Shown here piece after piece: positions 21,268 through 30,985 of a DNA stretch of 64,000 nucleotides. Each line of letters starts with the position of its first letter. Positions within the stretch are counted from its first letter, which is position 1. Both the position numbers and the translations under genes were made by a program. The stretch comes from Desulfomonilia bacterium (GTDB taxonomy: Bacteria > Desulfobacterota > Desulfomonilia > UBA1062): assembly GCA_036567785.1 (NCBI GenBank), contig DATCTV010000062.1:62001-126000 (forward strand). The letters are read 5' to 3'. The notes below the pieces were generated by a model that was given only the letters and a program-made list of their open reading frames with translations, was not told where the DNA came from and searched no databases.

Positions 21268-21448
21268 GAAATATTGAAATAAATATTATATCAATCCATC
21301 ATGCGATGCAACATTATTCAGTCTTGAAAAATGTTAACAGTACGCTTATTGACGGCTTTTATCCTGATATCTGATGCCTTACGGCTGCAAAAGGTTTTTG
21401 TGGTATATTTATTGTAAAGAGATAACAAATATATCAAGAGGTGGCCGC

Positions 21449-24040
21449 ATGGTATTTTCTGCAAGAGTTACTACCGGTGTCGAGGGGCTTGATAAAATAA
21501 TCGACGGCCTCAGAATGGGAGATAACGTTGTCTGGCAGATAGAAAATATAAACGATTACAGGAAGCTTGCAGAGTCATTTGTAAAAAGCGCCATCAAGGA
21601 GAAGAGGCGTGTCGTCTACATGAGATTCGGCCATCACGAGCCTCTGTTTGCACCGGACTCGGGCCTGAAAATATATTCGCTTAATCCCGACGCAGGTTTC
21701 GAAGGGTTTTCGTCTGACGTCCATAAGATAATCACGAATGAGGGCAGGGACGTATTCTATGTTTTTGACAGTCTGTCCGATCTGCTTTCATCATGGGCTA
21801 CCGACCTGATGATCGGCAATTTCTTTTTTATTACATGTCCCTATCTCTTCGACCTCAATACGGTTGCATATTTTGCGCTTCTGCAGAACAGGCACTCACA
21901 CCATACCGTTGCCAGGATCAGGGAGACGACGCAGCTTCTGATGGATGTTTACAGCACCGGAAAAGATTTCTATGTGCACCCTTTAAAGGTATGGAAAAGA
22001 TATTCCCCCACGATGTTTCTGCCCCATTTGAAAGACGGTGATACCTTTGTCCCGATAACGAGAAGCCTTGATGCCTCCAGGCTTTTGTCGCAGATATCGA
22101 AAAGATGGGACGAATCAACAAGAAGGCAGATGGATTACTGGGACAGGCTTTTCCTTCAGGCCGAAGAGATGCAGTCAAGAGATGTCAGCCCCGATGAAAA
22201 AAAAACCATGATAGACCAGCTTTGCAGGATCATGCTTGTAAGGGAACCCAAGATGCTGGACCTCGCCAGAGAGAATTTTACTCTTGATGATCTGCTTCAG
22301 ATAAAGACAAGGCTCATAGGCACAGGATATGTCGGCGGCAAAACAGTAGGGATGCTGCTTGCAAGAAAGATCCTTACGACGGATACCAGTATCGGGTATG
22401 AACAGTATTTTGAACCCCATGACTCTTTTTTCATCGGTTCGGATGTCTTCTATACATATATCGTTCAGAACGGCTGGTGGAAGCTGAGGATGAAACAGAA
22501 GACAAAGGAAGGATATTTCAAGGTCGCCAGAGAGCTTAAGGATGCAATGGCTAACGGTATTTTTCCTGATGAAGTAAAAGAGCAGTTCTTCCAGGTTATC
22601 GAATATTTCGGGCAATCCCCCATAATAATAAGGTCTTCCTCTCTGCTTGAAGACTCTTTCGGACACGCCTTCGCAGGTAAATACGAAAGCTTTTTCTGCG
22701 CGAATCAGGGTACGCCTGAGGAGAGATATATCCAGTTCGAGGAGACGGTCAGGAAGGTTTATGCATCGACAATGAATGAGGATGCGCTTATTTACCGGAG
22801 ACAACGCGGGCTGGAGGACCGTGACGAGCAGATGGCGCTCCTTGTGCAAAGGGTTTCAGGTTCATACAGGAAAGATTATTTCTTTCCTGACCTTGCAGGT
22901 GTGGGGATGTCGTACAATACCTTTGTCTGGAAGAAAGGGATGGATCCGGGCGCGGGAATGCTGAGACTTGTCCTTGGCCTCGGGACGCGCGCCGTCAACC
23001 GTATAGAAAATGATTATCCGAGGATGGTTGCTCTGGATGAACCTCTATTGAGGCCTCATGCCGGGATGAAGGATTTGAGGACATACTCACAGAGGAACGT
23101 CGATCTCATAAATATCAGGGAAAATGAGTTTCAGACCGTCTCCCTCATAAAAATGTTTGAAGAGGCTGTGGATATCCCCTTTGAGAAAATCGCAGTCCCT
23201 GATTATGAAATGACGGAACAGCTAAGGAAAACGAGGGGAGGAGATATAGAATCATGGCTCCTTACCTTTGACAGCCTTTTGACTGACACATCTTTTACAA
23301 AGGTTATGCACGGTCTTCTGAAAAATCTCGAAAAGGCCTACAGCTATCCGCTCGAGATCGAGTTTACGGTAAACTTCAATGATGTTGGGGATTTCAGGAT
23401 AAACCTGCTTCAGTGCAGACCTTTACAGGTTATAGGTGTGGAAAAGAACATTGAATTCCCAGGAAAGATCGATTCAGACAAGGTGATTTTCAGCATGAAC
23501 GGGAACTTTATGGGCGGCAGTATCGTTCAGCCTGTTGACAGGGTCATTTTCATTAAACCCGAGGCATACAGCGCCCTTCATCAGCAGGAGAAATACGAGG
23601 TGGCCCGGATTATCGGTGAACTCAACAGGATGATAGAAAACAGGAATGAGATGCCCGTAATGCTTCTGGGGCCCGGCAGATGGGGTACCACTACCCCGGC
23701 GCTCGGCGTACCCGTACATTTTTCAGAGATAAACAATATTGCTGTTATGGGAGAGATCGCACACTTAGACGGCAATCTCATGCCCGAACTTTCCTACGGG
23801 ACGCATTTTTTTCAGGACCTTGTCGAAAACAGGATATTTTATGTTGCCGTATTTCCATGGGAAGATGGTGTTGTTTTCAATACCAAAAGACTTTTGAAAG
23901 GGAAAAGTATTTTAACCGGGCTGCTGCCCGAGGCGAAAAAATACAAGGATGTAATAAAGGTTTACGAGACAAAAGGATCTGGACTTAATGTTGTTTCCGA
24001 TGTGGTAAAGCAAAGGATCATGTGTTTCTTCAAAGAGTGA
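21449..24040 (+). CDS. KaiC-like / PEP-synthase ATP-grasp fusion protein
   Basis: An 863-residue protein of unknown function. Residues 1-230 look like a KaiC/RecA fold (VTTGVEGLDKIIDGLRMGDNV), but the Walker A GK[ST] is missing. From about 285 to 700 it resembles the N-terminal ATP-grasp domain of PEP synthase/PPDK: LIGTGYVGGKTVGM matches the GGK loop and PIIIRSSSLLEDSF (about 390) the ATP-binding segment. RWGTTTPALG follows near 745. The phosphohistidine and PEP/pyruvate domains are absent. ATG 21449 follows GAGGTG by five bases. It is divergent from the glutamate synthase operon and may share its control region. Nucleotide-dependent phosphotransfer or signalling is possible but not shown. 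Confidence 0.7.
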   Translation: MVFSARVTTGVEGLDKIIDGLRMGDNVVWQIENINDYRKLAESFVKSAIKEKRRVVYMRFGHHEPLFAPDSGLKIYSLNPDAGFEGFSSDVHKIITNEGRDVFYVFDSLSDLLSSWATDLMIGNFFFITCPYLFDLNTVAYFALLQNRHSHHTVARIRETTQLLMDVYSTGKDFYVHPLKVWKRYSPTMFLPHLKDGDTFVPITRSLDASRLLSQISKRWDESTRRQMDYWDRLFLQAEEMQSRDVSPDEKKTMIDQLCRIMLVREPKMLDLARENFTLDDLLQIKTRLIGTGYVGGKTVGMLLARKILTTDTSIGYEQYFEPHDSFFIGSDVFYTYIVQNGWWKLRMKQKTKEGYFKVARELKDAMANGIFPDEVKEQFFQVIEYFGQSPIIIRSSSLLEDSFGHAFAGKYESFFCANQGTPEERYIQFEETVRKVYASTMNEDALIYRRQRGLEDRDEQMALLVQRVSGSYRKDYFFPDLAGVGMSYNTFVWKKGMDPGAGMLRLVLGLGTRAVNRIENDYPRMVALDEPLLRPHAGMKDLRTYSQRNVDLINIRENEFQTVSLIKMFEEAVDIPFEKIAVPDYEMTEQLRKTRGGDIESWLLTFDSLLTDTSFTKVMHGLLKNLEKAYSYPLEIEFTVNFNDVGDFRINLLQCRPLQVIGVEKNIEFPGKIDSDKVIFSMNGNFMGGSIVQPVDRVIFIKPEAYSALHQQEKYEVARIIGELNRMIENRNEMPVMLLGPGRWGTTTPALGVPVHFSEINNIAVMGEIAHLDGNLMPELSYGTHFFQDLVENRIFYVAVFPWEDGVVFNTKRLLKGKSILTGLLPEAKKYKDVIKVYETKGSGLNVVSDVVKQRIMCFFKE

Positions 24041-26036: not shown

Positions 26037-27704
26037 CTATTTATAGCTGTCCTTATGAACATCTTTCACGGCACGGCCCGATGGGTCGGCCATTCTGGCA
26101 AATGCCGCATCCCATTTGATTGCAGTGGGTGTAGAACAGGCAACCGACGGTCCGCCCGGGACGCACTTCGCGGCACTGTCGAGCGGAAAGAACTCGTGAA
26201 AGATTGAACGGTAGTAATAGGCCTCCTTGGTTGAAGGCGTGTTGACTGGGAAGCGGTAGTGCGCGTTCTCCATCTGCACGTCGCTGACCGTAGTTTCAGC
26301 GACTTCTTTCAGGGTGTCTATCCAGTTGTAACCTACGCCGTCGGAGAACTGCTCCTTCTGCCTCCATGCAACCTCGGGGGGGAGATAATCTTCAAATGCC
26401 TTCCTGAGTATGTACTTTTCTATCTTTTCGCCAGTGCACATCTTGTCTTCAGGATTGATGCGCATGGCTACATCCATGAATTCCTTGTCTAGGAACGGCA
26501 CCCTGCCTTCCACGCCCCAGGCTGCAAGCGACTTGTTCGCCCTCAGACAGTCGTATTTGCTCAGCATGGAGAGTTTTCTCACCGTCTCTTCATGAAATTC
26601 TCTGGGATCAGGCGCCTTGTGAAAATAAAGATATCCTCCAAAGATCTCATCTGCGCCTTCTCCTGACAGCACCATTTTAACGCCCATAGATTTTATCTTC
26701 CTCGACATCAGATACATAGGAGTTGAGGCCCTTATCGTGGTCACATCATAGGTTTCAATATGATAGATCACGTCTCGTATCGCATCGAGGCCCTCCTGAA
26801 CGGTAAATGTAAAGTTATGGTGCACCGAGCCTATGTGGTCGGCAACTTTCTGGGCTGCTGCGAGATCGGGCGAGCCTTCCAGCCCAATGGCGAAAGAGTG
26901 CAGCTGCGGCCACCATGCATCCTTGAGACCTCCTGTCTCAACGCGTTTTGCCGAATACTTTTTGGCAACGGCCGAAACGATTGAACTGTCGAGCCCGCCT
27001 GAAAGAAGAACACCATAAGGGACATCGGACATAAGCTGGCGCTCAACCGCCTCCTCAAGTGCCCTGTGCAGTTCTTTGATGCTGGTGCTGTTGTTCTTTA
27101 CGTTGTCATATTCCATCCAGTCCCTTTTGTACCACTCGACCGGGGCTTTTTCCCTGCTGCAGTAATAATGGCCCGGGGGAAACTCCTCAACCTTGTTGCA
27201 GACGCCCATCAGGGCTTTCATTTCAGAAGAAACAAAGAAATTGCCGTGTTCGTCATGCCCGGTATAAAGCGGAATTATTCCAATATGGTCGCGGCCTATC
27301 AGGTATATGTCGTTTTCGCTGTCATAAAGGACAAAGGCGAAAATGCCGTTTAAATCCTCAAGAAAATCAATGCCTTTTTGTCTGTAAAGGGCCAGAATGA
27401 TCTCACAGTCGGATTCTGTAAGGAAATTGTATGGTTCCTTGAGCGTTTTCTTGAGATCCTTGTGGTTGTATATCTCACCATTTACGGCAAGTGCGAGTTT
27501 CCCGTCTTCTGAATAAAGGGGCTGTGCGCCTTTGTTGACATCGACTATCGAGAGTCGTTCATGCGCGAGTATGGCCTTTTCGCTGACATATATCCCGCTC
27601 CAGTCAGGCCCCCTGTGGCGCATCTTACGGCTCATCATAAGGGCTTTAGCCCTCAGTTCCTTCAAATCCGACTTTATGTCAAGAATTCCAAGTATTGAAC
27701 ACAT
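26037..27704 (-). CDS. asnB: Asparagine synthetase, glutamine-hydrolysing
   Basis: A 555-residue AsnB, the same length as the E. coli enzyme. Cys2 in MCSILGI is the N-terminal glutaminase nucleophile, RGPDWSG and the NGEIYNH loop bind glutamine, and SGGLDSS in the C-terminal synthetase domain is the PP-loop that binds ATP. The reaction is aspartate + glutamine + ATP to asparagine + glutamate + AMP + PPi in the cytoplasm. It lies 101 bases downstream of glnK on the same strand, with a nested inverted repeat between, and is likely part of the sigma-54 ammonium operon. Confidence 0.92.
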   Translation of the reverse strand: MCSILGILDIKSDLKELRAKALMMSRKMRHRGPDWSGIYVSEKAILAHERLSIVDVNKGAQPLYSEDGKLALAVNGEIYNHKDLKKTLKEPYNFLTESDCEIILALYRQKGIDFLEDLNGIFAFVLYDSENDIYLIGRDHIGIIPLYTGHDEHGNFFVSSEMKALMGVCNKVEEFPPGHYYCSREKAPVEWYKRDWMEYDNVKNNSTSIKELHRALEEAVERQLMSDVPYGVLLSGGLDSSIVSAVAKKYSAKRVETGGLKDAWWPQLHSFAIGLEGSPDLAAAQKVADHIGSVHHNFTFTVQEGLDAIRDVIYHIETYDVTTIRASTPMYLMSRKIKSMGVKMVLSGEGADEIFGGYLYFHKAPDPREFHEETVRKLSMLSKYDCLRANKSLAAWGVEGRVPFLDKEFMDVAMRINPEDKMCTGEKIEKYILRKAFEDYLPPEVAWRQKEQFSDGVGYNWIDTLKEVAETTVSDVQMENAHYRFPVNTPSTKEAYYYRSIFHEFFPLDSAAKCVPGGPSVACSTPTAIKWDAAFARMADPSGRAVKDVHKDSYK

Positions 27705-27805: not shown

Positions 27806-29397
<1,592 letters not shown>

Positions 29398-29430
29398 ATA
29401 AAAAACCTCCGAAGGATTTTATCTGTATTA

Positions 29431-29445
29431 GCAACAGGAATGCCA
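29431..29445 (-). promoter_or_regulatory. Sigma-54 promoter of amtB-glnK-asnB
   Basis: Read on the minus strand: TGGCATTCCTGTTGC, with GG-N10-GC spacing and a perfect TTGC -12 element. The start site would be near 29420, about 20 bases before ATG 29397, leaving room only for the ribosome site. The motif at 29536 lies about 90-105 bp further upstream. Confidence 0.8.
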
Positions 29446-29661: not shown

Positions 29662-29678
29662 TTGGCACATGAATTGCT
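29662..29678 (+). promoter_or_regulatory. Sigma-54 promoter of AsnRS-like gene
   Basis: TTGGCACATGAATTGCT is a full match to the -24/-12 consensus (TGGCAC, TTGC, GG-N10-GC). The start site would be near 29689, about 70 bases before ATG 29762. An asparaginyl-tRNA synthetase would not be expected to be sigma-54 dependent, so this also bears on the function of the gene. Confidence 0.85.
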
Positions 29679-29761
29679 GAATATATACTATTAATATGAT
29701 CAAGATAACATGATAATAAAATCAGACCGCAAATGCGGATGAAAAAATACAGGAGGACTTT

Positions 29762-30985
29762 ATGACTTTTATAGGCGAGGATCTATTCCATTTCCAGGCG
29801 TCACTTATTCAACAGGGCTCTTCTTTTGAAGAGTTCATAAAAGAGAACTACATCAACAAATGGATTGGCGATACTGTATATGCAGCAATGAATGTACGCA
29901 CCACAATGGTGACTGCCGTACATAACTTCCTGGAAAATGAAGGACTCCTTAATCTTGAAAGGGTTCAAATGAGTCCGATTACCGACCCTCTGGCCCATGA
30001 TGTCGAACATGTGCCTGTGATTCATTACAAGGGCATGCCTTATGTTACCACTCATTCGATGATTTACCATAAGTTTATGGCTTGCTTTAATCCCAGGTTC
30101 AAAGGCATATTCGTTGATTCTCCGAATGTCAGGCTTGAGATTGAAAGTCCGCAAAGGAAGCAGCGCGGCAAGTATCTGATAGACTTTTCCCAGATAGACA
30201 TCGAACTCAGAAGGGGAAGGGATATTGATTTTGAAACATACAAGAAGGAACCAGAAAAGGTTAAGGCAATCCTTAAGGAAGATCTGGAAAAGGCTTATGA
30301 CTTTTTCGAGAGAATGCTGATTCATGCGGTGAAGGCGATTATAGAAAAGAATGAAGACGATCTGAAGGCATTGGATGTGGCTGTCGATGTTCCTTCTCAG
30401 CCGTTTCCGAGACTAAAGAACGATGAAATCCTTAAAAAATACGGGAGGGCCGGTGCGGAAACCGGAGCGGGAGAGGAAGCAGACTCCCAGTTCTTCTGGA
30501 TAACGGGACTTATGCGTGAAAATTATGATCTCATTTATCCTTACATTCAGAAAGACGGCAGCAAGATTCCCATTTCATCATTCACTTCCGATATGATCTA
30601 CAACTATGACATATGCGTCAAGGCCAGGAGCAGATCCACAGGAAAATATATGCCTGCCCTTGAGATACTTTCCGGAGCTGTCCGGGAATGGCTTTATGAG
30701 CCTATTGTGGAAAGGCTCATTGACAACAAGGTCATAGTTGAAAGGCCGGTTTTCAAAGAAGGCAATATAACCAATATCGACATACTGGACGGGTACGGGC
30801 CATTCCTGGCGGCCGTTCATATGAAAGACGCCAATGGCAAAGCATATTTCCCTGATACTTTCGGCGGAGGTCTTGGGGTGGAACGCTTGCTTTACGGTCT
30901 GTTGAGGGGCAGCAAGATAGAAAAGATAGACGATGTCACATTCTTCGGCAAGAATCCCGATTCGTTCCCCATATTCCTTTTCTAG
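29762..30985 (+). CDS. AsnRS-related asparagine synthetase (AS-AR/AsnA type)
   Basis: A 407-residue class-II aminoacyl-tRNA-synthetase catalytic core. Motif 2 is in SPNVRLE and GKYLIDFSQIDIEL (residues about 122-150), and motif 3 is GGGLGVERLLYG (about 368-379). The N-terminal OB-fold anticodon-binding domain of AspRS/AsnRS is absent. Only about 60 residues precede the core. Archaeal proteins of this kind (AS-AR of Pyrococcus abyssi) make asparagine from aspartate, ammonia and ATP. A sigma-54 promoter and divergence from amtB-glnK-asnB fit ammonia assimilation and not translation. GGAGGACTTT precedes the ATG. A tRNA-modifying or still different ATP-ligase role is possible. Confidence 0.75.
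   Translation: MTFIGEDLFHFQASLIQQGSSFEEFIKENYINKWIGDTVYAAMNVRTTMVTAVHNFLENEGLLNLERVQMSPITDPLAHDVEHVPVIHYKGMPYVTTHSMIYHKFMACFNPRFKGIFVDSPNVRLEIESPQRKQRGKYLIDFSQIDIELRRGRDIDFETYKKEPEKVKAILKEDLEKAYDFFERMLIHAVKAIIEKNEDDLKALDVAVDVPSQPFPRLKNDEILKKYGRAGAETGAGEEADSQFFWITGLMRENYDLIYPYIQKDGSKIPISSFTSDMIYNYDICVKARSRSTGKYMPALEILSGAVREWLYEPIVERLIDNKVIVERPVFKEGNITNIDILDGYGPFLAAVHMKDANGKAYFPDTFGGGLGVERLLYGLLRGSKIEKIDDVTFFGKNPDSFPIFLF

Follow-up and report, generated by a model that had tools for sequence, protein, structure and literature searches.

Enzymes of the AS-A/AS-AR kind spend ATP to activate aspartate, which then reacts with ammonia in place of tRNA (PMC9437257), and in archaeal AS-AR it is the β-carboxylate that is activated, with the aspartate anchored by two arginines (PMC3532385). 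AS-AR is represented by structures from P. abyssi (3p8t, 3reu and 3rl6) and P. furiosus (1nnh) and by the NCBIfam models NF005052 and NF005054. Here, we analyzed a 64,000-nucleotide stretch of a Desulfomonilia bacterium genome (hereafter, the window), which carries a tRNA-synthetase-like gene; the bacterial family of its product is named ASL in this report. ASL is probably an asparagine synthetase that depends on ammonia and forms part of the nitrogen regulon, belonging to a divergent sister subfamily of AS-AR. The basis for this reading is the predicted fold, the lineage, the active-site residues, the sigma-54 sites, the nitrogen operons and the constant presence of asparaginyl-tRNA synthetase (AsnRS).

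The ASL gene (29762..30985, plus strand) was delimited by its open reading frame, a Pfam tRNA-synt_2 match, PDB matches, its grouping with AS-AR in trees and a 46-member alignment; it encodes 407 aa, and AGGAGG lies immediately 5' of the ATG. A preliminary description had assigned the span 29662-30985 to this gene; the frame is real and on the plus strand, but position 29662 belongs to the promoter and the frame starts at 29762. Above cut-off, the Pfam search returned just tRNA-synt_2 (38.6 bits, cut-off 25), with no OB/tRNA_anti domain in the protein and no match to AsnA (PF03590) at E<=1. The AlphaFold model (pLDDT 80, with low confidence at the active-site loops) consists of a helical N-terminal stretch and a class II core, and the OB β-barrel is absent from it. 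The Pfam search, the model and the alignment thus bear out the earlier account of a 407-residue product with class II motifs 2 and 3 and no OB domain. By sequence, the top PDB relatives were the AS-AR entries 1nnh (E 2e-13) and 3p8t (E 1e-12), and the family profile reached E 1.5e-18 against the same entries. Scores with the NCBIfam 'asparagine synthetase A' models were 124 bits for NF005054 (cut-off 309) and 62.5 for NF005052 (cut-off 368); since these lie far under the cut-offs, ASL was treated as a separate sister subfamily, outside both families.

Like AS-AR, ASL consists of a class II catalytic domain of the AspRS/AsnRS type that lacks OB, and the two share the signatures SPxTDPL, THSMI, PN(I/V)RLE, Q-x-D-x-E, RE-x-YD and SG-x-x-REW. 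With 26-28% identity to each other, they differ in length (407 vs 294 aa, in agreement with the earlier remark that the protein is longer than that of P. abyssi), in the extra segments of ASL, and in that ASL is bacterial, under sigma-54 control and found in GS/GOGAT operons. Bacterial AS-AR homologues annotated as 'asparagine synthetase A' (Methylobacter, Streptomyces plasmids) fall in the same clade as ASL, but are about 325-340 aa long and share 23-27% identity with it. With bacterial AsnA (E. coli, PF03590), ASL shares the predicted reaction and a freestanding class II core, whereas the profile comparison matched the motif 3 region only and the lineage is separate. The ancestral fold and motifs 2 and 3 are shared with AsnRS and AspRS, unlike the OB domain, the flipping loop and the diagnostic residues of these synthetases, which ASL lacks.

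With regard to lineage, the trees united ASL and AS-AR in one clade (support 100/100) and placed AsnRS in a separate one (99/95), and AU tests rejected both a grouping of ASL with AsnRS (p-AU 0.004) and one with AspRS (p-AU 0.007). The phylogeny proposed in the preliminary description therefore assigns ASL to AS-AR, outside the AsnRS and AspRS clades; the trees are compatible both with ASL nested in AS-AR and with ASL as its sister (p 0.086). The stem branch of ASL is long (2.7-3.6 changes per column), so that long-branch attraction may still affect its placement. Profile-profile comparison gave E 2.5e-35 against AS-AR (31% identity), compared to 1e-11 against AspRS and 9e-8 against AsnRS. At the columns diagnostic for AS-AR, ASL carries the AS-AR residue in 13 of 24, compared to the synthetase residue in just 1 of the 13 synthetase-diagnostic columns, and where AspRS/AsnRS have the EGG flipping loop, ASL has SPxTDPL, like AS-AR. 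VIA-align of the ASL model yielded Z 24.3 for AspRS 1b8a (21% identity), 23.4 for AsnRS 1x54, 22 for AS-AR 3p8t/1nnh (262/294 residues, 25-27% identity) and 19.3 for E. coli AsnA (11as); as all four match the model, the fold alone is undecided, and the sequence decides for AS-AR. ASL is best explained as a long divergent subfamily beside AS-AR with about 110 extra residues. Of the proposal that it is an AS-AR-type enzyme, the kinship was upheld by the tree, but not the identical architecture, ASL being a longer and divergent sister group.

Of 297 genomes from the phylum, 20 (source included) encode relatives with 57-78% identity, which also occur at 32 named MAG loci. The carriers are for the most part 'Deltaproteobacteria' and Desulfobacteraceae, with single loci labelled Bacteroidetes, Neomarinimicrobiota and Wallbacteria. 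Across 46 ASL sequences, the class II residues R124 and E126 (motif 2), E301, G305, R308, and G368, G370, G372, E374 and R375 (motif 3) are invariant, as are the loop residues S71, T74-L77, D80, T97-I101, K104, Q144, D146, E148 and R252. R252 and R308 align with the AS-AR arginines, which makes them candidate aspartate anchors at the level of the alignment. No viral homologues were confirmed, the sole match in a plasmid search with the window protein was the distant Methylobacter AS-AR, and a literature search of limited scope returned no paper on the ASL family in sulfate reducers. On two Streptomyces plasmids (L082, 2965-3939; L083, 2902-3921), an AS-AR-type gene immediately follows those for a B12-binding protein and for methylaspartate mutase, and a GltB-like gene comes next; one of the two AS-AR-type genes adjoins an NRPS, and their products may amidate 3-methylaspartate. 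A very divergent relative, a 335-aa 'amino acid--tRNA ligase-related protein', adjoins a TauD-family dioxygenase on a Pantoea plasmid (L084, 2953-3957).

Upstream of the ASL gene, an exact consensus sigma-54 (-24/-12) promoter, TGGCACATGAATTGCT (29663..29678, plus strand), lies 99 bp from the ATG; the 3.96-Mb genome holds eight exact matches, this one included, compared to one match of a reversed control pattern. A second site with one mismatch, TGGCATTCCTGTTGCT (29430..29445, minus strand), faces amtB and is the probable sigma-54 promoter of amtB-glnK(-asnB). These genes, which are divergent from ASL, encode an ammonium transporter (amtB, 28168..29397, minus strand; Pfam and NCBIfam amt), a PII signalling protein (glnK, 27806..28144, minus strand; Pfam P-II) and a glutamine-dependent asparagine synthetase of the E. 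coli AsnB type (asnB, 26037..27704, minus strand; NF006949, 958 bits, over cut-off). Both the consensus promoter and the arrangement opposite amtB-glnK-asnB had been described correctly beforehand. Intrinsic terminators were not found in the ASL region. The source genome encodes rpoN, as did all four genomes searched, source included. Elsewhere in the window, the gene at 21374-24040 has an 888-aa product that contains a PPDK ATP-grasp domain; homologues recur near amtB/glnK/ASL in five further loci (L059, L039, L029, L040 and L038), so this gene may be part of the nitrogen neighbourhood.

Of 47 ASL genes, 18, that of the window among them, have a near-consensus sigma-54 site on the coding strand in the 200 bp upstream; none of the 47 has one there on the opposite strand, and among other ORFs the figure is 3 of 196 (Fisher p 6e-12 for ASL vs other ORFs, relatedness ignored). 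In six further loci (L044, L047, L048, L050, L052 and L058) the site precedes glnA, and together these observations indicate that the promoter of the window is a family feature. The glnA gene lies within 1.5 kb of ASL in 19/47 loci, and nitrogen-assimilation or glutamine-amidotransferase genes occur in 38/47, several of which have short flanks. The operon glnA-ASL-gltB-gltD-hisH-hisF-carA is present in L042, L044 and L050, with L047 identical as far as hisF, and glmS-glnA-ASL-hisH in L048 and L052; among the remaining loci, some carry amtB, glnK and glnD and some purF. In L044, a GAF-AAA-Fis sigma-54 activator is encoded close to glnK. In line with the earlier suggestion of nitrogen regulation through sigma-54, both the sites and the nitrogen genes are thus conserved across the family. 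In L051 (84-2252), an AspRS apparently fused to a GatC-like C-terminal segment is divergent from ASL.

AsnRS was found in 20/20 ASL genomes, compared to 102/277 genomes without ASL (uncorrected p 7e-9, with five families involved), and in L025 asnS lies directly downstream of ASL. AsnB was present in 17/20 ASL genomes; therefore, ASL is rarely the sole candidate asparagine source and the two routes usually coexist, like AsnA and AsnB, both of which E. coli has. The pairing with AsnB, which had been considered unusual, is accordingly the common situation. A phyletic replacement of AsnB by ASL was rejected, with ASL in 3/27 AsnRS-positive genomes lacking AsnB and in 17 of about 95 with both AsnRS and AsnB. 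One MAG (G159) has ASL and AsnRS, with AsnB, AsnA and GatB not detected, which is only suggestive since the assembly is 90% complete. This argument is weakened by 24 AsnRS-positive genomes of the phylum sample in which AsnB, AsnA, AS-AR and ASL were all undetected (AsnA in 0/24, no full AS-AR over cut-off); the NF005054 cut-off was exceeded in 0/44 genomes. Pelobacter carbinolicus likewise has AsnRS without a known asparagine synthetase (PMC3543383), and ASL alone leaves this kind of puzzle in place for the 24 genomes. In L034 (9237-9367), an asnB remnant, its start fused to the last ~36 codons, lies directly 3' of an intact ASL gene.

The missing OB/tRNA-gripping part, the ammonium and glutamine neighbours and the sigma-54 promoter together indicate that ASL most likely makes asparagine from aspartate and ammonia. 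The second asparagine synthetase postulated in the preliminary description is thereby supported, through the placement with AS-AR; from this homology and the genomic context we infer the reaction, the ammonia donor, the β-carboxylate activation and the induction under nitrogen limitation. Derived from an AspRS/AsnRS catalytic domain, ASL would hold ATP with its class II motifs and activate the β-carboxylate of aspartate as aspartyl-adenylate, which would be attacked by ammonia rather than tRNA to yield free asparagine, AMP and PPi. Ammonia is the likely donor, since ASL has no glutaminase domain and AmtB imports ammonium. Transcription from the sigma-54 promoter would rise under nitrogen limitation, like that of amtB and glnK, with AmtB importing ammonium, and the asparagine made would serve as substrate for the AsnRS of the cell. 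Tentatively, ASL might represent an uncharacterised bacterial asparagine synthetase lineage that serves, alongside GS-GOGAT, in primary ammonium assimilation by uncultured 'Deltaproteobacteria' and members of a few further phyla, and be the sole asparagine source for AsnRS in some genomes.

Other functions were weighed against this one. The methylaspartate mutase and GltB-like genes beside the Streptomyces plasmid relatives, together with the one NRPS, suggest that the AS-AR scaffold may accept other acids, and ASL has segments extra to AS-AR near residues 127-135, 154-170, 262-300 and 325-360; ASL could then be a nitrogen-linked, AS-AR-like adenylate-forming amide ligase for another substrate, such as a substituted aspartate or an alternative amine acceptor. 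We consider this unlikely, since ASL resides in primary nitrogen operons (glnA, gltBD, amtB/glnK), once with asnS, and not in biosynthetic clusters, and since every ASL genome has AsnRS. Less likely still is a non-catalytic regulator or subunit, comparable to HisZ for HisG, that would tune glutamine synthetase or PII via aspartate, asparagine or ATP: glnA, glnK and glnD are often near ASL and a true AsnB is usually also present, but in all 46 sequences, which come from several phyla, the class II catalytic residues are unchanged, and so are the two arginines that putatively bind aspartate, in contrast to a degenerate paralogue.

ASL might instead be a shortened AsnRS or AspRS that has retained tRNA charging and receives an OB domain from another protein, a reading that would agree with the shared catalytic fold and the slightly higher Z scores of AspRS and AsnRS compared to AS-AR. 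This reading is nevertheless very improbable, given that ASL lies outside both clades and that the flipping loop and diagnostic residues of tRNA synthetases are missing. Furthermore, the source genome has separate genes for AspRS, LysRS and a full 430-aa AsnRS, the last of which the preliminary description had suggested looking for, and none of the neighbours tested encodes a split-off OB domain; gatB was not found in this genome.

The evidence supports ASL as an asparagine synthetase-like, divergent subfamily of a known enzyme kind in a notable regulatory setting: a synthetase paralogue taken into the sigma-54 nitrogen regulon alongside GS-GOGAT. It extends AS-AR-type enzymes well into bacteria and provides a testable function for a conserved synthetase-like family prone to mis-annotation. 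The source genome also harbors a second ASL copy (contig C60, 47427-48647; L026), 76% identical to that of the window and without adjacent nitrogen genes or a sigma-54 site. Another genome of the sample, G131, likewise carries two ASL copies in differing contexts.
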